Positions 3,427-28,208 of a stretch of DNA of 46,345 nt are shown here, one piece after another (positions within the stretch are counted from its first letter, which is position 1; every line of letters begins with the position of its first letter). The position numbers and the translations under genes were made by a program. Source of the DNA: Verrucomicrobiaceae bacterium. GTDB lineage: Bacteria; Verrucomicrobiota; Verrucomicrobiia; Chthoniobacterales; JAATET01. The stretch is taken from assembly GCA_027488755.1 (NCBI GenBank), contig JAIYAZ010000139.1, positions 1 through 46,345 of the forward strand, written 5' to 3'. The notes beneath the pieces are model-generated. The model did no database searches. It was given only the letters and a program-made list of their open reading frames with translations, and was not told where the DNA came from.

Positions 3427-3926
3427 TTCAATTCGCGCTTGCTGAGGACGACGACGCCGATCGTGGCGACGAGGAGGAGGACGCCGATGATCTGGAACGG
3501 CAGGTTAAACTGCGTGAAAAGCGTGACGCCGACGGCCTGCACGTCGTTCGTGGTGCTCTGGGCGAGGGCGGGTTTGACGGCGGCGAATTTCGGCTCGGAA
3601 CAAATGACCCGGACGAGGATGGCGATGAAGCCGGCCAGGACGAGGATGCCGCCGCCGAGGGCGGGCAGGTTGAGCTTGCGGGCGCGCTCGGCCTTGAGGT
3701 CGAGCAGCATGATGATGAAGAGGAAGAGCACCATCACCGCGCCGGCGTAGACGAGGATCTGGATGATGCCGATGAAGAAGGCGTCGAGCAGGAAAAAGAG
3801 GGACGCCAGCCCGACGAAGGAGACCACCAGGCACATGGCCGAGGAGACGGGGTTGCGCAGGAGAACGACGCCGATCCCGAAGATCAGCATGAGAGCGGCG
3901 AAGGCCCAGAAGAGAGCGAGGGACAC
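3423..3926 (-). CDS. nuoJ: NADH-quinone oxidoreductase subunit J
   Basis: Five-helix membrane subunit of complex I (167 residues, usual length). The third helix carries the conserved [16 protein letters not shown] segment, whose pi-bulge takes part in coupling quinone reduction to proton pumping. The start is GTG (3926-3924). It follows nuoI after a 69-nt gap and overlaps nuoK by 4 nt. The hydrophilic loop near residues 113-135 is variable in the family. Confidence 0.96.
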
Positions 3927-8850: not shown

Positions 8851-10317
8851 ATGAGCCCCACCCTGCCGCCGCCCCCCTCCCGCCCCGCCCTGCGCCGCCC
8901 CGTTGCCGTCTGGCTGGCCGTCCTCGCCGCCACCTCCCTAGCGCACGCCGGCACGGAAGCCTCCGCCCCAACGGTTGAGATTCAGGAACAAAGCACGCTC
9001 ACCGAGTGGTGGCAGGGCAAGCGCATGACCGGCGACTGGTTCGGCCTGCGGGACACGCTCGAGGACTACGGCCTTAAGTTTAACGGGAAATATTACGGCG
9101 CGTTTTTTGGCGTGATCAAAGGCGGCGACGCCAAGTCCCGCGGCTTCTGGGATCAGGGCATGGAATTCGGCGCGGAGCAAAACTTCGGCAAGCTCTTCAA
9201 CAGCGAGGCCCTCGAGGGCGTGAAGGGATTCGGCATCGTGCGCTGGCGCGACCCGCGCAGCAGCGCCGACCCGAATGAATACGCCGAGGCCAACAGCATG
9301 TTCAGCCCCACCAACTGGGCCTCCGGCACCCAGTGGCGCCTGCTCGCCGCCGGCCTGGAAATCGGCTCCGCCGGCAACCTCCCCGTGAAGGACATGATCG
9401 TCCTGCGCGGCGGCTGGATCCAACCCCAACGCGAGTTCATCGACCAGCCGCTCTCCAAGCTGTTCCTCAACAACACCGTCAACAGCGCCAAGGGCATCGG
9501 CGGCAACATCCCCTTCTCCTCCAGCTTCTCGACCTGGGGCGGCACGCTGCGCGTCAAACCCACCGAGCAAACCTACGCCAAGGGCGGCCTGTTCATGGCC
9601 TTCCCCCAGGCCACCAGCAGCAGCAACCACGGTCTCGCCATGCAGGGCTTCGCCCGCAACCCGAACCGCAACGGCCTCATGGCCATGGGCGAACTCGGCT
9701 GGACCCCGAAGCTCGGCACCGCGGCGCTCGAAGGCCGCTACGCCTTCGGCGGTTACTACTGGGGCGTCGAAAACAAATCCTACCTCGGCGCGACTTACGA
9801 CGGCCAATACGGGTTCTACGGACAGTTCGACCAGATGCTCTTCCGTGAAGCCTCGCCCGCGCCCGCCTCCGTGCAGGCCAAGGGCCCGGCCGACGGCAAG
9901 TCCACCGCCGACGCGAAGGACTTCAAGCAACCAGTCGGCCTCGAAAAACCCTCCCTCAGCAAGCAGGGCCTCTCGATGTTCAACCTCGTGACCTTCGCCC
10001 CGAAGTATAACAACCAATTCCCCTTCTACTTCCAAACCGGCCTCGTCTACCGCGGCCTCATCCCGACCCGCGACGACGACCTCACCCTCATCTCCCTCGC
10101 CTACGGCAGTTACAGTTTCTACCAGATCGAAGCCGACCAGATGGAGGGCAACCCGAACCAGCCGAACTACTCCGGCATCATCGAAGCCGGCTACCGCGTG
10201 CAAATCAACGGCTGGGCGTTCGTGCAACCCTTCTTCCAATACATCTTCCGCCCCGACGGCACCGGCATCACCCAAAACGCCGGCGTCCTCGGATTCTCCA
10301 CCGGCCTCGAGTTCTAG
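8851..10317 (+). CDS. OprB-family (carbohydrate-selective type) outer-membrane porin
   Basis: Predicted outer-membrane beta-barrel, 488 residues from ATG 8851 (the frame is open to 8800, but the signal peptide begins here). There is a signal peptide to about residue 33 (SLAHA), then the OprB-family opening MTGDWFGLRDTLEDYGL (around residues 60-76) and repeated amphipathic strands with many aromatic residues. The last residue is Phe (STGLEF), the usual barrel-assembly signal. OprB relatives import sugars in Pseudomonas, but substrate cannot be read from sequence. Its place directly before pstSCAB-phoU allows a role in phosphate-limited growth; that is inference. The 181-bp gap to pstS contains a separate Pho-box-like site, so the two are probably separate transcripts. 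Confidence 0.85.
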   Translation: MSPTLPPPPSRPALRRPVAVWLAVLAATSLAHAGTEASAPTVEIQEQSTLTEWWQGKRMTGDWFGLRDTLEDYGLKFNGKYYGAFFGVIKGGDAKSRGFWDQGMEFGAEQNFGKLFNSEALEGVKGFGIVRWRDPRSSADPNEYAEANSMFSPTNWASGTQWRLLAAGLEIGSAGNLPVKDMIVLRGGWIQPQREFIDQPLSKLFLNNTVNSAKGIGGNIPFSSSFSTWGGTLRVKPTEQTYAKGGLFMAFPQATSSSNHGLAMQGFARNPNRNGLMAMGELGWTPKLGTAALEGRYAFGGYYWGVENKSYLGATYDGQYGFYGQFDQMLFREASPAPASVQAKGPADGKSTADAKDFKQPVGLEKPSLSKQGLSMFNLVTFAPKYNNQFPFYFQTGLVYRGLIPTRDDDLTLISLAYGSYSFYQIEADQMEGNPNQPNYSGIIEAGYRVQINGWAFVQPFFQYIFRPDGTGITQNAGVLGFSTGLEF

Positions 10318-10408
10318 CCCGCCGCCAAAACAGCCCGCTTCCCCGTCCGCCCCGCAAAAACCGAAAATCCCCTCGCCCCCGGGCGCCCAACCTTGGCACG
10401 CCTTGATT

Positions 10409-10427
10409 CTTGTCACGAAATCGTCAC
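10409..10427 (+). promoter_or_regulatory. Pho-box-like direct repeat upstream of pstS
   Basis: TTGTCAC and TCGTCAC occur 11 bp apart, separated by an A-rich GAAA. This is the architecture of a PhoB-binding Pho box (two 7-bp direct repeats with 11-bp periodicity, consensus CTGTCAT/CTGTCAC). It lies about 70 bp before the pstS start. No convincing -10 hexamer was found at the expected distance, so the call rests on repeat match, spacing and target gene. Confidence 0.5.
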
Positions 10428-10498
10428 ACGTCGTTCTTTTCCGAGAGCGCCATCACGCCGCATGATGTCCGCTCCAACCCGTTAAATCCACGCTCTCC

Positions 10499-11509
10499 AT
10501 GATGAAGACCTCCCTTCTCCTCCCCCTCCTGGGCACCCTGCTCGCCCTCACCGCCCCCCACGCCTCGGCCGTCCAGCTCAGCGGCGCCGGCGCCAGCTTC
10601 CCCGCGCCCCTCTACCAGCGCTGGGCCGTGGAATTCAACAAGGTCAACCCCGACGTCCAGCTCAACTACCAGTCCGTCGGCTCCGGGGCCGGCGTGAAGC
10701 AGTTCCTCGCCGGCACCGTCGACTTCGCCGCCAGCGACGCCGCCATCAAGGACGAAGAAGCCGCCAAGGTCGCCCGCGGCGTCGTCCTCATCCCCGCCAC
10801 CGCCGGTTCCATCGTCATCGCCTACAACCTCCCCGGCGTGACCGACCTCAAGCTCTCCCGCGACACCTACGTCGGCATCTTCCTCGGCAAAATCATCGCC
10901 TGGGACGACGAAGCCATCAAGAAGGACAACCCCGGCGTCACGCTCCCGAGCCTCCCGATCAACGTCGCCTACCGCTCCGACGGCTCCGGCACCACCTACG
11001 TCTTCACCAAGCACCTCTCCGCCATCAGCCCCGAATTCGACGACGAAGTCGGCACCGATAAATCCGTCACCTGGCCCGCCGGCGCCGGCGGCAAGGGCAA
11101 CGAAGGCGTCACCGCCCTCATCAAGCAGACCCCCGGCACCGTCGGTTACGTCGAATACGGCTACGCCGCCAACAACGGCCTCGCCATGGCCTCCCTCCAA
11201 AACAAAAGCGGCAACTTCGTGAAGGCCGACGCCACCAGCGGTGCCGCCACCCTCGCCAGCGCCGAACTCCCCGCGAACCTCGTCGCCTTCCCCAGCGACC
11301 CCGCCGGCGCGCAGGACTACCCGATCGCCACCTTCACCTGGCTGCTCCTCTACGGCAAATATGACGACACCGCCAAAAAGGACGCCCTCGTCAAATTCAT
11401 CACCTGGGGCCTCGGCGACGGGCAGAAACTCGCCACCGAGCTCGGCTACATCCCGCTCCCCGAGTCCGTCGTGAAAAAAGCCCTCACCGCCCTCGAGACC
11501 GTCAAATAG
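10499..11509 (+). CDS. pstS: Phosphate ABC transporter substrate-binding protein
   Basis: Periplasmic phosphate-binding protein that hands phosphate to PstCA. It has 336 residues: a signal peptide (1-24, ending ASA), then the family opening LSGAGASFPAPLYQRW, whose Ser contacts phosphate. The second phosphate-contact region is RSDGSGTTYVFTKHL, and the C-terminal IATFTWLLLY is also typical. Two adjacent ATGs (10499 and 10502) are possible starts. It is the first gene of pstSCAB-phoU, preceded by a Pho-box-like site. Confidence 0.97.
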   Translation: MMKTSLLLPLLGTLLALTAPHASAVQLSGAGASFPAPLYQRWAVEFNKVNPDVQLNYQSVGSGAGVKQFLAGTVDFAASDAAIKDEEAAKVARGVVLIPATAGSIVIAYNLPGVTDLKLSRDTYVGIFLGKIIAWDDEAIKKDNPGVTLPSLPINVAYRSDGSGTTYVFTKHLSAISPEFDDEVGTDKSVTWPAGAGGKGNEGVTALIKQTPGTVGYVEYGYAANNGLAMASLQNKSGNFVKADATSGAATLASAELPANLVAFPSDPAGAQDYPIATFTWLLLYGKYDDTAKKDALVKFITWGLGDGQKLATELGYIPLPESVVKKALTALETVK

Positions 11510-11575
11510 CGTCCGCCTTTCCCCGCGGGAGACGCCGGTCGCCGGCGTCCCCCGCGGCCCCTCTCCGCCGCGCTC

Positions 11576-12559
11576 ATGGACACCCTGCCCAGCCCCTCGG
11601 CCCCCGCTTCCCGGCCCGGACCCGGCAGCTTCACCGCCCGGCGCCGCCCCGATCTTTTCCTCGTCCTCTGCGTCCTCGCGTCAGTCGCCACCGTCGGCAC
11701 GCTCCTCTGGATGATCCTTGAGATCACCCACCAGTCCTGGCCCGCCATCGAAAAATTCGGCCTCGCCTTCCTCACCAACGCCCGCTGGCAGCCCAACCGC
11801 GAAATCTTCGGCGTCCTGCCCTTCCTCCTCGGCACCGGCGTCACCTCCCTCATCGCCATCATTCTCGCCCTCCCGCTCGGCCTCGCCGTCGCCGTCTTCC
11901 TCAGCGAGGATTTCCTCCCCCCGCCCGTCCGCCAGTTCATCCGGTTCACCGTCGAAATGCTGGCCGCCATTCCCTCCGTCGTCTACGGCCTCTGGGGCAT
12001 CTTTGTCGTCATCCCGCTCGTCCAGGAATTCGGCCGTTGGGCCGTCGTCGCCTTCAAGGGCACCCCCGTCCTCGGCAGCCTCTTTGCCGCCCCCGCCTAC
12101 GGCAACAGCATCCTCACCGCCAGCCTCGTGCTCGCGCTCATGATCCTGCCCACCATCACCGCCATCTCCCGCTCCGCCCTCGTCGCCGTCCCCGGAACCC
12201 TCCGCGAAGGCTCCTACGCCCTCGGCGCCACCCGCTGGGAAACCATCCTCCGCGTCCTCCTCCCCACCGCCGCCCCCGGCATCATCGCCGCCACCATCCT
12301 CGCCCTCGGCCGCGCCATGGGCGAGACCATGGCCGTCGCCATGCTCATCGGCAACAGCCCCCGCTTCTCCGGCTCCCTCCTCTCCCCCGGCGGCACGCTC
12401 GCCGGCCTCCTCGCCAACCAATTCGGCGAAGCCCAGGGCCTCCAGGTCGCCTCCCTCATGTATGCCGCGCTCATCCTCATGCTGCTCACCCTCATGGTGA
12501 ACATCGCCGGGGAAGCCGTCCTGCGTTACACCCAGAAACGCACCGCCGGAATCCGCTGA
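11576..12559 (+). CDS. pstC: Phosphate ABC transporter permease PstC
   Basis: Inner-membrane permease half of the Pst importer (327 residues, six helices). The N-terminal cytoplasmic stretch of about 25 residues is Pro/Ser-rich. Family landmarks are FGVLPFLLGTGVTSLIA, MLAAIPSVVYGLWGIFV and the EAA loop LREGSYALGATRWETI that docks on PstB. It is 66 nt downstream of pstS and 6 nt before pstA, so it is co-transcribed. Confidence 0.96.
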   Translation: MDTLPSPSAPASRPGPGSFTARRRPDLFLVLCVLASVATVGTLLWMILEITHQSWPAIEKFGLAFLTNARWQPNREIFGVLPFLLGTGVTSLIAIILALPLGLAVAVFLSEDFLPPPVRQFIRFTVEMLAAIPSVVYGLWGIFVVIPLVQEFGRWAVVAFKGTPVLGSLFAAPAYGNSILTASLVLALMILPTITAISRSALVAVPGTLREGSYALGATRWETILRVLLPTAAPGIIAATILALGRAMGETMAVAMLIGNSPRFSGSLLSPGGTLAGLLANQFGEAQGLQVASLMYAALILMLLTLMVNIAGEAVLRYTQKRTAGIR

Positions 12560-12565
12560 CCCGCC

Positions 12566-13447
12566 ATGCCCGCCGCGACCACGCCCCCCGCCGCCTTTCT
12601 GGACTCGGCCCGCTCCGCCGGCACCTGCCGCCGCGCCATCATCAACCGTGTGCTCAACGTCCTCTGCGTCGGCCTCGCCCTGCTCACCTTCGTCCCCCTC
12701 GTCTCGATCCTCTTTCTCCTCCTCAAAAACGGCCTCCCCCTCTTCGGCTGGGACATCTTCACCCAACTCCCCCCCGCCGCCGGCCAGACCGGTGGCGGCT
12801 TCGGCAACGCCATCGTCGGCACCCTCCTCATGGTCGGGCTCGCCATCGCCATCGCCACCCCCTTCGGCGTCCTCGCCGCCATCTACGTCAACGAATACGC
12901 CCCCGGTTCGAAACTCGCCAACGCCGTCCGCTTCGTCGCCAAGCTCCTCACCGGCATCCCCTCCATCATCTGCGGCGTGTTCGCCTACGCCATCATCGTC
13001 CTCGCCACCAAGCAATTCTCCGCCTGGGCCGGCGGCTTCGCCCTCGCCATCCTCATCCTCCCCACCATCATCCTCACCGCCGAACAGGCCCTCCTTGGCG
13101 TGCCCAAGGCCTACCGCGAAGCCTCCTACGGCCTCGGCGCCACCAACTTCCAGACCATCTGGCGCATCGTCCTGCCCGACGCCCTCCCCGCCATCATGAC
13201 CGGCGTCATGCTCGCCGTCGCCCGCGCCGCCGGCGAGACCGCCCCGCTCATCTTCACCGCCCTCTTCAGCCAATACTGGATCCGCTCGCTCAACGAACCC
13301 ACGGCCTCCCTCTCCGTCCTCATCTTCAACTTCTCCACCCTGCCCTTCGAGCACCAGGTCAAGATGGCATGGACGGCATCCCTCGTGCTCGTCATCCTTG
13401 TCACCGGCGCAAACGTGACCGCCCAGCTCCTCTTCCGCAAAAAGTGA
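12566..13447 (+). CDS. pstA: Phosphate ABC transporter permease PstA
   Basis: Second inner-membrane permease of the Pst importer (293 residues, six helices). Seen are GGFGNAIVGTLLMVGLA, LTGIPSIICGVFAY and the EAA coupling loop YREASYGLGATNFQTIW. The later GETAPLIFTALFSQYW segment is typical of PstA rather than PstC. It is followed after 6 nt by pstB. Confidence 0.96.
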   Translation: MPAATTPPAAFLDSARSAGTCRRAIINRVLNVLCVGLALLTFVPLVSILFLLLKNGLPLFGWDIFTQLPPAAGQTGGGFGNAIVGTLLMVGLAIAIATPFGVLAAIYVNEYAPGSKLANAVRFVAKLLTGIPSIICGVFAYAIIVLATKQFSAWAGGFALAILILPTIILTAEQALLGVPKAYREASYGLGATNFQTIWRIVLPDALPAIMTGVMLAVARAAGETAPLIFTALFSQYWIRSLNEPTASLSVLIFNFSTLPFEHQVKMAWTASLVLVILVTGANVTAQLLFRKK

Positions 13448-13453
13448 ACGCTT

Positions 13454-14293
13454 ATGTCCTCGACCATGGAGCCGATTGACCCCACCTCCGCCGCCCCCGC
13501 CAGCGCCGCGTCCGCCGCCGACGCCGACGAAGCCCTCCGCCGGCGCTTCATCGAGGTGAAAAACTTCCACTTCTTCTACGGCAAGAAGCAGGCCCTCTTT
13601 GAGATCAACCTCGCCATCCCCCGGCGCGAAGTCACCGCCTTCATCGGACCCTCCGGCTGCGGCAAATCCACCCTCCTCCGCAACTTCAACCGCATGAACG
13701 ACCTCATCGAGGGCGTGCGGCACGAGGGCGACATCACCATCGGCGGCAGCAGCATCTACGACCCCTCCGTCGAAATCATCGCCCTGCGCCGCAGCATCGG
13801 CATGGTCTTTCAAAAATCGAACCCCTTCCCGAAGTCGATCTACGAAAACGTCGTCTACAGCCTCCGCATCGCCGGCCAGAACAGCCGCAAACTCCTCGAC
13901 GAAACCGTCGAACGCAGCCTGCGCGGCGCCGCCCTCTGGGACGAAGTGAAGGACCGCCTCCACGACAGCGCCCTCAGCCTCTCCGGCGGCCAGATGCAGC
14001 GCCTCTGCATCGCCCGCGCCATCGCCAACCGCCCCGAAGTCCTGCTCATGGACGAGCCCTGCTCCGCCCTCGACCCCATCGCCACCGCCAAGGTCGAGGA
14101 ACTCATCCACGACCTCAAAAAGCAGTTCACCATCGTCATCGTCACCCACAACATGCAGCAGGCCACCCGCTGCTCCGACCACACCGCCTTTTTCTACCTC
14201 GGCAAACTCATCGAGTTCGACCGCACCCAGAAAATCTTCGCCAACCCCGCCCAGAAACAAACCGAGGATTACATCACCGGACGATTCGGATGA
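13454..14293 (+). CDS. pstB: Phosphate ABC transporter ATP-binding protein
   Basis: Cytoplasmic ATPase of the phosphate importer (279 residues). The Walker A motif GPSGCGKS is at 65-72, the signature LSGGQ at 176-180 and Walker B LLMDEP at 197-202, with the switch His in [10 protein letters not shown]. An Ala/Pro-rich N-terminal segment of about 30 residues precedes the domain; an internal ATG at 13466 could instead be the start. The gene order pstSCAB-phoU is the canonical one. Confidence 0.97.
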
Positions 14294-14358
14294 CGACTGG
14301 CACGCGCGCTGCGCTCCGCCAACCCGGCATTTGATCACCCCCTCCCCGCCCCCGCACC

Positions 14359-15045
14359 ATGAACGGCACCCACATTCTCGGAACCTTCGACGGCTCCCTC
14401 GCCTCCCTTCGCAACAACGTCCTCATGATGGCCGGCCTGGCGGAGCGCAATCTCGCCAACGCCACCAAGGGTCTCTTCGAGCGCGACGACGACCTCAGCA
14501 ACATCGTCATCGCCGATGACGAGGAAATCGACGTCCTCGAAATCCAGGTCGACCGCGAAGGCCTCGAAATCCTCCTCCGCTTCCAGCCCGTCGCCTCCGA
14601 CCTCCGCCAGGTCGTCACCAGCATGAAGTCGAGCGTCAACATCGAGCGCATCGCCGACCAGTGCGTCAACATCGCCCGCCGCGCCCGCAAGCTCAGCGCC
14701 CAGCCCGAACTTCCCCTTATCCGCTCCCTTGAGCCCATGTTCGCCGCCGCCGCCGGCATGTTTGCCGACGCCGTCCGCGCCTACGCCGACGCCAACGCCG
14801 AACTCGCCCGCGGCCTCAAGGCCCGCGACCGCGACCTCGACGAACTCAACCGCGTCTTCGCCGAAGCCTGCACCGAGCGCATGGCCGTCGAGCCCCACAA
14901 CATCCAGGGCTACCTCAACCTCATCTTCATCGCCCGCTTCATCGAACGCATCGGCGACCACGCCACCAACCTCGGCGAAGACATCGTCTACGCCGTCATG
15001 GCCGAGGAAATCCGCCACACCCAGCCCCCGCCGCCGGCACGGTAG
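14359..15045 (+). CDS. phoU: Phosphate signalling regulator PhoU
   Basis: Two tandem three-helix-bundle PhoU domains (228 residues) that link Pst transport state to the PhoR kinase and shut off the Pho regulon when phosphate is plentiful. Metal-binding D/E-rich helix motifs are seen in both halves (EIDVLEIQVDRE near residue 58; ERIGDHATNLGED near residue 200). It is the last gene of the pst operon, followed by a strong terminator hairpin. No phoR or phoB gene lies in the window. Confidence 0.95.
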   Translation: MNGTHILGTFDGSLASLRNNVLMMAGLAERNLANATKGLFERDDDLSNIVIADDEEIDVLEIQVDREGLEILLRFQPVASDLRQVVTSMKSSVNIERIADQCVNIARRARKLSAQPELPLIRSLEPMFAAAAGMFADAVRAYADANAELARGLKARDRDLDELNRVFAEACTERMAVEPHNIQGYLNLIFIARFIERIGDHATNLGEDIVYAVMAEEIRHTQPPPPAR

Positions 15046-15076
15046 GCAGCCACGCACCGCACGGTTCCATAAACGT

Positions 15077-15114
15077 CAAAAGCCCCCGCCAGGAGAACCC
15101 GGCGGGGGCTTTTG
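15077..15114. terminator. Two-way Rho-independent terminator between phoU and rpsD
   Basis: A perfect 14-bp stem (CAAAAGCCCCCGCC paired with its complement) closes a 10-nt loop. The stem base is AAAA on one side and TTTT on the other, so both strands read a GC-rich hairpin ending in U residues. It sits between the convergent phoU (+) and rpsD (-) and should stop both transcripts. Confidence 0.9.
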
Positions 15115-15168
15115 GCTTCTCGCACCAGAGCGGCCCGAAGGCACCCTGGCGGAGGACGGAACGACGAT

Positions 15169-15780
15169 TTAGCGCGAGTAGAGCTCGACGACGAGCTGCT
15201 CGTTGGCGATCGGGTTGATCTCGTCGCGGGTCGGGATGCGGGTCACCTCGCCGGTGAGATTCTCGCGGTCCACGAGGAGCCACTCGGGCACGGTCACGAT
15301 CTGCGTCTGCTCGAGATTCCGCTGCGCGAGGCGCTTGGAGTTCGCGGCTTCCTTGATCGAGATCTTGTCACCGGGCTTGAGGTTCGCCGAGGCGACGTCG
15401 AGCTTGCGGCCGTTCACGCGCACATGGCCGTGGGCGACCAGCTGGCGGGCACCCTGGCGGGTCTTCGCGAAGCCGAGGCGGTAGATCACGTTGTCCACGC
15501 GGGTCTCCAGAAGCTGGAGGAGCGTCTCACCCGTCACGCCACGGCGGGCAACCGCGATGGCGAAGTAACGACGAAACTGCTTCTCAAGCACGCCATACTG
15601 GTGGCGAAGCTTCTGCTTTTCCGCGAGCGCGAGGGCGTAGTCGGAGACCTTGCGGCGCGCGCCCTTCGGGCCGTGCATGCCCGGGGGATAATTTTTGCGC
15701 TCGAAGGCTTTGGCCGAGCCGCCGATGAGCACGTTGTAACGGCGGCTGATTTTGGTTTTGGGTCCGGTATTGCGGGCCAT
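15169..15780 (-). CDS. rpsD: 30S ribosomal protein S4
   Basis: Primary 16S rRNA-binding protein of the 30S body (203 residues, usual length). The N-terminal region is the zinc-free form. An S4/RNA-binding domain runs over about 92-155 (ETLLQLLETRVDNVIYRLGFAKTR, then ARQLVAHGHVRVNGRKLDV). It is the last gene of the ribosomal run and is followed by the two-way terminator rather than by rpoA and rplQ. Confidence 0.98.
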   Translation of the reverse strand: MARNTGPKTKISRRYNVLIGGSAKAFERKNYPPGMHGPKGARRKVSDYALALAEKQKLRHQYGVLEKQFRRYFAIAVARRGVTGETLLQLLETRVDNVIYRLGFAKTRQGARQLVAHGHVRVNGRKLDVASANLKPGDKISIKEAANSKRLAQRNLEQTQIVTVPEWLLVDRENLTGEVTRIPTRDEINPIANEQLVVELYSR

Positions 15781-25084: not shown

Positions 25085-25759
25085 TTAGTTGGCGGCGCCG
25101 ACCGGCTCGTTGGCGGCGGGCTCGTTTTCGGTCTTCTCGGCCGGTTTGCAGATCCAGCACTTCACGCCGATTTTGCCGGCGGTGGTGTCGGATTCCGCGA
25201 AGCCGTAATCGATCGGCTTGCGCAGGGTGTGGAGGGGGATGGTGCCCTCGCGATACCATTCGGTGCGGGCGATTTCCGAACCGCCGAGGCGGCCGGAGAC
25301 GCGAACCTTGATGCCCTCGGCGCCGAGGTCCATGGCGGTCTGGACGGCGCGCTTGATGGCGCGGCGGAAGCCGATGCGGCGCTCAAGCTGGCCGGCAACG
25401 TTTTCCGCGACGAGCTGGGCGTCGATTTCGGGTTTCTTGATCTCGACGATGTCGATCTTGACCTGCTTGCCTTCGGCGAGTTTGGAGAGCTCGGCGGTCA
25501 TGTTTTCGATCTCGGAGCCCTTGCGGCCGATCACCACGCCCGGGCGGGCGGTGAAAATCGTTACGCGGACGGTGTTCCAAGCGCGCTCGATGAGAATCTT
25601 GGAAACGGCGGCCTGCTTGAGCTTCTTCTTGAGGTGCTCACGGATGCGCACGTCAACGAGAAGGTAGTCGGCCAGCTCTTTCTTCGAGGCATACCACTTC
25701 GAACGCCAGTCGCGGGAGACCGGAAGGCGGAAGCCGATTGGATTGACTTTCTGTCCCAT
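25085..25759 (-). CDS. rpsC: 30S ribosomal protein S3
   Basis: mRNA-entry protein of the 30S with helicase activity (224 residues). The KH domain [14 protein letters not shown] and the segment [19 protein letters not shown] are visible. A short Glu/Ala/Asn-rich tail follows the core. It is 2 nt after rplV. Confidence 0.98.
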
Positions 25760-25761
25760 GG

Positions 25762-26229
25762 TTATTCTTTGGTTTCGACCGTTTCGGCGGTCGGGGTGGC
25801 CTCGGCGGCGGGAGCCTTCTCGGCCTTCGGGGTGGAGGCCTTCTTGGCCTTGCCCGCGGGTTTCTTGGCGCCCTTCGGTTCGCGGCGCTTGATTTCGATC
25901 TCGTCGGTGAGCGTGATCTTGATGTGGCTGGTGCGTTTGCGGATCGGGCCCGCGCTGCCGCGAGCCTTGGGCACAAAGCGCTTGAGGGTCGGTCCCTCAC
26001 CCACGATGGCCTCCTTCACGACGAGAGCATCGACGCGCAGGTTGTTGTTGTTCTCCGCATTCGCGATGGCGCTCTTCAGCGTTTTGCTGATGAGGGCGGC
26101 TGCTTTCTTCGGGGTGAAGCGCAGCACGCTGAGCGCATCGGTGGCGGGAAGCCCCTGAATCTCACGAGTGACTTCCCGAGCCTTAAAGGCCGAGATCCTC
26201 GCATACCGATATGTCGATTGAACCTGCAT
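25762..26229 (-). CDS. rplV: 50S ribosomal protein L22 with Lys/Ala-rich tail
   Basis: Tunnel-lining 50S protein. The core (1-112) has [17 protein letters not shown] and the beta-hairpin region [18 protein letters not shown]. It is followed by about 40 extra residues of Lys, Ala, Pro and Glu ([17 protein letters not shown] onward), giving 155 against about 110. Upstream, where rpsS normally adjoins, a secreted-protein gene intervenes. Confidence 0.97.
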
Positions 26230-26253
26230 GTCTAGTTTGTTAATTCGTTGGTG

Positions 26254-27060
26254 TCACTGCCGGGCATCCACCCGGAGTCGGTCGCCGGCTTGCACCGGAT
26301 TGTTAGGGTCGGTTAAATTCTGGATTACGGCTCCGCAGATGCGTTCGCGAACGTCGATCACGCGCACGTCGGCGATCTTGGTCTCGCCGCGCCACGCCTG
26401 AAAGGGCATGCCAATCTTCACGCCGTGGCGGGTGCCCACGTTGGCAACCACGAGCGAGAGGTCGTCGCGGATTTCGACGACCATGGCATCCGAAAGCGTC
26501 GCCTCGGTGGCGGCCGCGGTCGCGGCACCCTCGGGGCTGCCGAGCAACTCGGAGGTGCGGCGGAGTTCCGCCTCCACCACGCCCCGGGCGTCCGGAGAAA
26601 CGTTTTCGGTGGTTTTCAGCAGCACATTCACCGCCTCGGAGAGTTGGATGAGCCCCGTGCGAAGGTCCTCGTTGTCTTTTTTGGCCAACCGGAGATCCCG
26701 CACCGCCGCAAGCAGCCTCTGCTCGATTTTTCCTTCGTCGCCTTCCAGCCCGGGGATGCCCAGGGCTTGAAGCTTGAGGGAGAGATCGGCCGCCTGCCGT
26801 TTGTAGGTCTCGGCTTCGGCGTTCGCGTTTGCCAGGCTTTGGGTCAACTGCTTGACCGTGTTTTCGAGCAGAATGACGCGCTCTTCCGGAGGGGCATCGT
26901 CTTCGATGCCTCCCGTCGGGGACGCCACTCTGCCACCCCCTCCGGTCGTAACCGGAGGTTCCTGCAATCCAGAATTTGTCAAAGATCGTTCGTCCTGCGC
27001 GCTGGCGAGGGTCGCCAGCCCGAGGGCGCAGATGCCTGCCGCGGTCGCAGCAAGTTTCAT
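26254..27060 (-). CDS. Secreted coiled-coil protein of unknown function inside the S10 operon
   Basis: 268 residues, no recognised family. In order there is a Sec signal peptide (1-21, ending LASA), a Gly/Pro-rich linker (30-58), two predicted coiled-coil stretches (about 61-100 and 111-150), an Ala-rich hinge (175-190) and a compact, probably beta-rich C-terminal domain (191-268). The last contains GTRHGVKIGMPFQAWRG and ends NPVQAGDRLRV. There is no Cys lipobox and no membrane helix besides the signal, so it is probably periplasmic; the general plan recalls MreC-like proteins, but no motif proves it. It starts 8 nt after the rpsS stop and ends 24 nt before rplV on the same strand, so it must be transcribed with the ribosomal genes. 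No clear Shine-Dalgarno precedes it. Confidence 0.85.
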   Translation of the reverse strand: MKLAATAAGICALGLATLASAQDERSLTNSGLQEPPVTTGGGGRVASPTGGIEDDAPPEERVILLENTVKQLTQSLANANAEAETYKRQAADLSLKLQALGIPGLEGDEGKIEQRLLAAVRDLRLAKKDNEDLRTGLIQLSEAVNVLLKTTENVSPDARGVVEAELRRTSELLGSPEGAATAAATEATLSDAMVVEIRDDLSLVVANVGTRHGVKIGMPFQAWRGETKIADVRVIDVRERICGAVIQNLTDPNNPVQAGDRLRVDARQ

Positions 27061-27068
27061 CCGTTTGG

Positions 27069-27347
27069 TTATTTCGTCACTTTTGCGGTGTGCGAACCGT
27101 GCTTCTTGAAGATGCGCGTCGGCGCAAATTCGCCCAGCTTATGGCCGACCATGTTCTCGGTGATAAACACCGGGATAAAGGTCTTCCCATTGTGAATGTT
27201 GAAAGTGTGACCAACGAAGTCGGGGGTGATCGTCGAGCGACGAGCCCAGGTCTTGATCGGCTTCTTTTGGTTGGCGTCGTTGAGCTTGTCGATTTTCTCG
27301 AGCAGCTTCCATTCGACGAACGGGCCTTTTTTGAGGGAGCGTCCCAT
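27069..27347 (-). CDS. rpsS: 30S ribosomal protein S19
   Basis: Head protein of the 30S (92 residues, usual length): [19 protein letters not shown] at the start, [19 protein letters not shown] in the middle, and [16 protein letters not shown] at the end. It is 6 nt after rplB and is followed by the unexplained secreted-protein gene instead of rplV. Confidence 0.98.
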
Positions 27348-27353
27348 GGTGCG

Positions 27354-28208
27354 TTATTTCTTGGTCTTCTTCTGGCTGGGGCGACGCTCGATGATGAAGC
27401 GGTCGCTGCCCTTGTGCTTGCGGCGGGTCTTGAAGCCCTTGGCGAGCTGGCCCCACGGGCTCTGGGGATGCTGGCGTCCGCCACCACCCTTGCTCTTGCC
27501 CTCGCCACCACCCATCGGGTGGTCGACCGGGTTCATGGCCATACCGCGGGTCTGCGGACGGATACCGAGCCAGCGGGAACGACCGGCCTTGCCGCTCGAC
27601 ACGTTGAAATGGTCCGTGTTGCCGACCTGGCCGATGGTGGCGTAGCAGGCCTCGTTGATTTTGCGGATTTCTCCGGAAGCGAGTTTCACGAAGGCGTAGC
27701 CGCCCTCGCGGTTGTTGAGGATGGCCTGGCCACCGGCGCTGCGGACGATCTGCGCGCCGCGACCGGGGGTGAGTTCGAGATTGTGAATCGCGGTGCCGAG
27801 CGGAATGGAGCGGAGCGGAAGGGCGTTGCCGATCTTCGCGTCGATCGATTCGCCGGCAATGACCTTGTCTCCAACGTTCAAGCCAACCGGGGCGAGGATG
27901 TAGGTCTTTTCGCCGTCGGGATACTGAAGCAGAGCCAGACGGGCCGTGCGGTTCGGATCGTATTCGATGGCGAGCACCTCGGCGGCGACGTCGCGCTTGA
28001 CGCGCTTGAAGTCGATGACGCGATACATCCGCTTGTGCCCACCGCCGCGATGGCGGGAGGTTTTCCGGCCGTTGTTGTTGCGGCCGCCGGTCTTCTTGAT
28101 CGGCTCGAGCAGGCTTTTTTCCGGCTTGCTCTTGGTGATTTCCGCAAAATCAGGCAGCGCCTTGAAGCGCGCGGAAGGGGTGAGGGGGCGAAAGGTTTTG
28201 AGTCCCAT
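27354..28208 (-). CDS. rplB: 50S ribosomal protein L2
   Basis: Core 50S protein near the peptidyl-transferase centre (284 residues). [22 protein letters not shown], and the [18 protein letters not shown] segment with the conserved functional His, are present. The frame is open 23 codons further upstream; ATG 28208 ([15 protein letters not shown]) is the family start. Confidence 0.98.

Follow-up and report, generated by a model that had tools for sequence, protein, structure and literature searches.

A conserved gene for a putatively exported coiled-coil and beta-barrel protein between rpsS and rplV in Verrucomicrobiota

Two described proteins come closest in plan to the one considered here: FlgT, the Vibrio H-ring protein, which is exported and carries a six-strand barrel, and MreC (Pfam: PF04085), in which a coiled coil is followed by one or more small beta barrels outside the cytoplasm. 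A review describes the C-terminal domain of FlgT as a barrel of six strands capped by a helix, sharing the topology of the periplasmic-adaptor barrels and linked in structure to F1-ATPase, and calls its role not fully understood (PMC4446572). Among lineage-specific proteins of the PVC group, the signature protein CT421.2 also has an unknown role, but at 53 to somewhat more than 80 amino acids, against 268 here, it is set apart by its size and its description (PMC3444138). The gene that we describe lies in the S10 ribosomal operon.

The window, that is, the whole stretch of 46,345 nucleotides analysed from a Verrucomicrobiaceae bacterium (contig JAIYAZ010000139.1), contains an open reading frame for 268 amino acids with an ATG start and no internal stops (Table 1). 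The gene is separated from rpsS by 8 nt and from rplV by 24 nt, all on the same strand, so that the reading frame and its flanks agree with the preliminary description of an intact gene inside the S10 operon. The pairing of rpsS with rplV is among the most stable in bacteria. No sigma-70-like promoter was found in positions 25700-27500, and terminator-like sites in the same interval showed no excess over shuffled sequences. Shine-Dalgarno strength is uninformative, as most genes of the S10 operon here have no obvious such site. The neighboring rplV product has a C-terminal extension of approximately 48 residues, rich in K, A, E, and T; the match to the L22 domain ends at residue 107.

Table 1. 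Features of the gene, its predicted product, and its two neighbors (positions in the window)
Feature	Position	Strand	Basis or remark
Gene for exported coiled-coil and beta-barrel protein, 268 aa (export predicted)	26254..27060	minus	ORF call, homologues
Export signal, residues 1-21	26998..27060	minus	ASA|QD as predicted site of signal peptidase I; conserved starts
Low-confidence linker, residues 22-57	26890..26997	minus	pLDDT <50 for residues 1-53; alignment
Helix 1, residues 58-99, heptad-patterned	26764..26889	minus	AlphaFold2 and heptad test
Helix 2, residues 109-149, heptad-patterned	26614..26736	minus	AlphaFold2 and heptad test
Helix 3, residues 156-173, without heptad excess	26542..26595	minus	AlphaFold2 and heptad test
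C-terminal beta-barrel, residues ~189-268, FlgT C-domain type	26257..26496	minus	AlphaFold2, FlgT match, profile-profile match
rpsS	27069..27347	minus	Upstream neighbor in S10 operon; orthologous rpsS in relatives
rplV	25762..26229	minus	Downstream neighbor; linkage partner where rplV no longer follows rpsS

The protein begins with MKLAATAAGICALGLATLASA|QDERS, where the bar marks the predicted cleavage site. A hydrophobic N-terminal stretch above a threshold of 1.6 (the ribosomal controls reach at most 1.53) is found in 23 of 26 homologues of the order, 12 of 13 from other classes, and all seven of the minimal versions described below. This supports the signal peptide named in the preliminary description, and the hydrophobic N-terminus argues against the identity of a ribosomal protein. 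The export signal is kept in differing forms: the N-terminus is lipobox-like in homologue L187 and, by eye, in L189, and anchor-like in L183 and L191. Just past the cleavage site, at residues 25-30 (positions 26971-26988), there is a motif of the type RSLTNS or SSLTES; it recurs in the alignment of most Chthoniobacterales homologues and is possibly a binding peptide.

Two coiled coils and a compact C-terminal domain had also been proposed, and both are recovered. The hydrophobic excess at heptad positions a and d was matched by 19 of 5000 shuffles for the first helix and by 45 of 5000 for the second; the third helix is not patterned in this way. The C-terminal domain is predicted to form six strands, and when it was modelled alone with 50 homologues the AlphaFold2 model was confident (pLDDT 88.8, pTM 0.77).

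How widely is this arrangement conserved? A homologue is present in 42 of the 57 genomes of the order that were searched, host included. Within the order, homologues from 25 further genomes share 32-73% identity with the window protein, and a 268-amino acid frame conserved to this degree is far beyond chance. Among 29 loci fetched from relatives, 28 have rpsS, the gene, and rplV in this order on one strand; in the remaining one (L030) the gene is directly before rplV and no match to rpsS was seen. When named genomes were scanned with a profile containing the barrel motif, blind to location, all 80 loci recovered in named Chthoniobacterales contigs had the same order, although a scan of the contigs with the single protein as query gave no match. 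The agreement across independent genomes rules out an assembly artefact. Fifteen further families of the class contributed 20 regions, and in every one of these the gene lies between rpsS and rplV within a normal S10 cluster. A profile search gave matches in at most 213 of 286 genomes of the class and in at most 100 of 240 across the phylum, both upper bounds that include weak matches to paralogues outside the operon. One heavily sampled genus of the class (g32), with genomes of 2-3.5 Mb, carries the gene.

The part of the protein that persists is the barrel. In three families (f21, f46, f48) and part of a fourth (f24), the same slot is occupied by a minimal version of approximately 110-135 amino acids that has the signal and the barrel without the coiled coil, and profile comparison speaks for the homology of these versions (hhalign E-value 1.5e-12). 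Thirteen further families of the class or order (f5, f19, f20, f23, f26, f28, f29, f32, f33, f34, f36, f47, f55) have rpsS followed by rplV after 5-46 nt, with nothing in the interval. These clean adjacencies indicate that the gene can be lost, and with many lineages of the class lacking it, the gene is not universally required.

Several loci have unusual spacers or reading frames. In L154 (genome G010, 0.9 Mb, family f8) and in L172, L175, and L176 (f24), rpsS and rplV are separated by 99-151 nt with no recognizable gene; same-family relatives keep the gene, and these spacers are possibly its remnants. L155 (G053, f6) has an open frame of 177 amino acids, approximately 171 from the first ATG, with a divergent barrel, and L157 (G006, f4) has a 555-nt spacer without a recognizable homologue. 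In six genomes of family f12 (G020, G027, G035, G042, G048, G055) the homologue match is split into two adjacent pieces, which suggests that something has been inserted where the helical region meets the barrel.

Outside the class, homologues lie between rpsS and rplV in families f66, f71, f74, f76, f89, f90, f91, f93, and f99, and directly before rplV in f67 and f87. The set from the order and the set from other classes are clearly related (hhalign probability 99.6%, E-value 4.5e-24). The preliminary description had raised the question of whether the insertion is conserved; the same slot is used in the order, in the class, and in other classes. A further sample comprised 30 other-class genomes picked by handle number. 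The gene is absent and rpsS and rplV are adjacent (15-109 nt) in f63, f69, f70, f75, and f82. In f62, f67, f68, f72, f73, f80, and f88 there is no rplV after rpsS within the flank read; other sequence follows rpsS there, and rplV-rpsC-rplP continue elsewhere. Loci around rplV were sampled in these families and in a few further genomes, 24 in all. With rplV parted from rpsS, 16 of the 24 still encode, 3-101 nt upstream of rplV, a helical protein that has the same barrel. As the homologue still accompanies rplV apart from rpsS, the tie of the gene is to rplV.

The gene has been inherited together with its neighbors. For 87 loci, its protein distances track those of rpsS, rpsC, and rplB combined (Mantel r 0.96; 0 of 2000 permutations), and four of 34 strong splits conflict with this combined set. 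It evolves roughly twice as quickly as they do (mean p-distance 0.565 versus 0.251). When presence and absence are placed on a tree of rpsS and rplB for 103 loci, which is approximate because it is built from two short proteins, nine losses suffice as against 19 gains, and the Fitch count is nine changes compared to a mean of 26.7 with shuffled labels. These numbers favor one old acquisition, followed by vertical inheritance with repeated loss. A recent or horizontal insertion is ruled out by the class-wide synteny together with the congruence of distances.

The codon usage of the gene differs from that of its neighbors. Its codon adaptation to the ribosomal set in the window is 0.42, the lowest of the operon, versus 0.56-0.78 for the others, and in 63 of 95 loci the gene ranks last or next to last. 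Equal expression or matching dosage should therefore not be assumed, and the idea of growth coupling is tempered accordingly. The gene is probably transcribed together with the S10 operon, yet it is not optimized like a ribosomal gene.

On balance, we lean toward the view that the gene encodes an envelope protein that is ancient in the Verrucomicrobiota, has been passed on vertically, and whose dose would be coupled to ribosomal-protein synthesis. The protein would be exported by the Sec pathway, with a signal peptide here and, in some homologues, an N-terminus that resembles an anchor or a lipobox; its coiled coil would thus act outside the cytoplasm, as would its FlgT_C-type barrel. The barrel would be the conserved functional part, most likely docking on another envelope protein, a ring, or a scaffold, while the helices would set reach and oligomer state and serve as a dispensable, adjustable spacer. 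With the gene directly before rplV, its transcription would rise and fall with ribosomal-protein synthesis; translation might also be coupled, given the gap of only 8 nt. An envelope factor would thereby be supplied in proportion to growth. It is tempting to go further and to hypothesize that the linkage to rplV has been selected because the factor must match ribosome synthesis, as a built-in coupling of growth rate and envelope; this we propose only tentatively.

A rather doubtful but serious competitor is that the gene is a long-lived passenger, an ordinary envelope protein gene that entered the S10 operon once, in an ancestor, and whose place there would be of no consequence for regulation. 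Rearrangements of ribosomal clusters are rare, so that simply staying put would look similar. The weaker codon adaptation, the recurrent clean losses that leave rpsS and rplV at their normal spacing, and the wide variation in length and architecture all fit a passenger. However, a passenger would not be expected to keep its link to rplV at loci where rplV has parted from rpsS, or to be retained with a conserved barrel in many families within and outside the class. These two observations make a passenger less likely.

The barrel was compared with known structures. Its best matches are two FlgT structures (PDB: 3w1e and 8z5n; TM 0.67), which are also at the top of the Foldseek results; the comparison with the FlgT C-domain gives Z 11.2-11.7 and an rmsd of 1.9-2.4 over 77-82 residues, with 22-25% identity; for the barrel modelled alone the values are Z 11.2-11.3 and rmsd 2.0-2.4 over 79-82 residues. 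The next-best matches are the N-terminal barrels of F1-ATPase (Z approximately 10). Both these and the periplasmic adaptors have a barrel of the same small six-strand class (for the adaptor link, see PMC4446572), but the gene has no transporter or ATPase context and the likeness is one of fold only. Since F1-ATPase has the same barrel fold, the fold alone does not fix the function. Weak matches to Pfam FlgT_C (PF16538) were found in 24 of 50 homologues at an E-value of 0.1 or less (best 6.2e-5), more often than to any other Pfam family; the window protein itself has no match to this domain. A profile match to a MexC-like adaptor (E-value 0.0011; its strongest stretch, 36 positions long, has i-E 0.017) is probably due to chance.

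The preliminary description had suggested a comparison with MreC, and one might imagine an MreC-like scaffold of the cell wall or cell shape that organizes peptidoglycan synthases at a dose tied to growth. A coiled coil followed by a barrel would suit such a role, Foldseek matches the barrel to MreC, among others (TM 0.50-0.51), and four of 50 homologues have weak Pfam MreC matches (best E-value 0.03). The distant similarity of fold therefore stands: against Listeria MreC, the barrel alone gives a Foldseek E-value of 1.4e-2 and TM 0.51, compared to TM 0.67 for FlgT, which fits better. Identity with MreC does not stand. The genome has its own mreC on another contig (C164), beside mreB, mreD, and a PBP2-like gene, and hhalign of the barrel against this MreC gives a probability of 1.3%, so that a replacement of MreC is ruled out. 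In addition, the window protein has no Pfam MreC match, has one barrel only, carries a signal peptide instead of a membrane anchor, and is encoded outside mreBCD. We consider an MreC-like scaffold improbable.

A regulatory role of the SecM type, in which translation and export of the protein would set the expression of rplV downstream, appears more improbable still. The placement of the gene immediately before rplV, given the export signal of its product, and the persistent link to rplV rather than to rpsS would agree with it; but the homologues have no conserved arrest-like C-terminal peptide, their conserved part is a folded barrel followed by tails that vary in length and sequence, and the distance to rplV ranges from 3 to more than 100 nt. 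A flagellar FlgT-like ring protein can be dismissed despite the best fold match being the FlgT C-domain, because of the 54 genomes searched for FlgH six have it and 48, among them the host, do not. The FlgT N and M domains have no Pfam match in the window protein up to an E-value of 10, residues 58-173 are helical, and the gene lies in the S10 operon.

The preliminary description regarded the function as undescribed, and we found no curated family or paper for the protein. No NCBIfam family exceeds its cut-off for the window protein, and the homologues have scattered weak NCBIfam matches only, mostly to coiled-coil families. The papers examined, which deal with S10 gene order, with PVC signature proteins, and with rpsS, rplV, and Verrucomicrobia, do not describe it. 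That several classes of the same phylum have kept, at rpsS-rplV, a protein that carries an export signal and is not ribosomal is an unusual exception. An uncharacterized gene right before rplV occurs across much of the Verrucomicrobiota. The conserved position suggests that these bacteria may tie part of the cell envelope to ribosome production. It singles out a defined gene with which to ask how growth rate and the building of the envelope are brought into line. Tractable hosts are available: for Verrucomicrobium spinosum, a saturated transposon library and targeted mutagenesis exist; the transposon study lists 644 essential genes, and 100 essential proteins are of unknown function (PMC12283558).

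Paralogues of the gene occur in the host and elsewhere (L182, L198, L199, L201). They have a long coiled coil and the same barrel, but there is no ribosomal gene nearby, the N-terminus is anchor-like, and the barrel has a different motif (WNFVVLNIG, EPSxxIAD). The host copy, L182 (contig C27, positions 9000-15500, ORF ending at 3751), is a weak profile match (E-value 1.7e-6). The paralogue family is also found outside the ribosomal operon in other families, and genomes of family f65 have two matches close together, possibly tandem copies.
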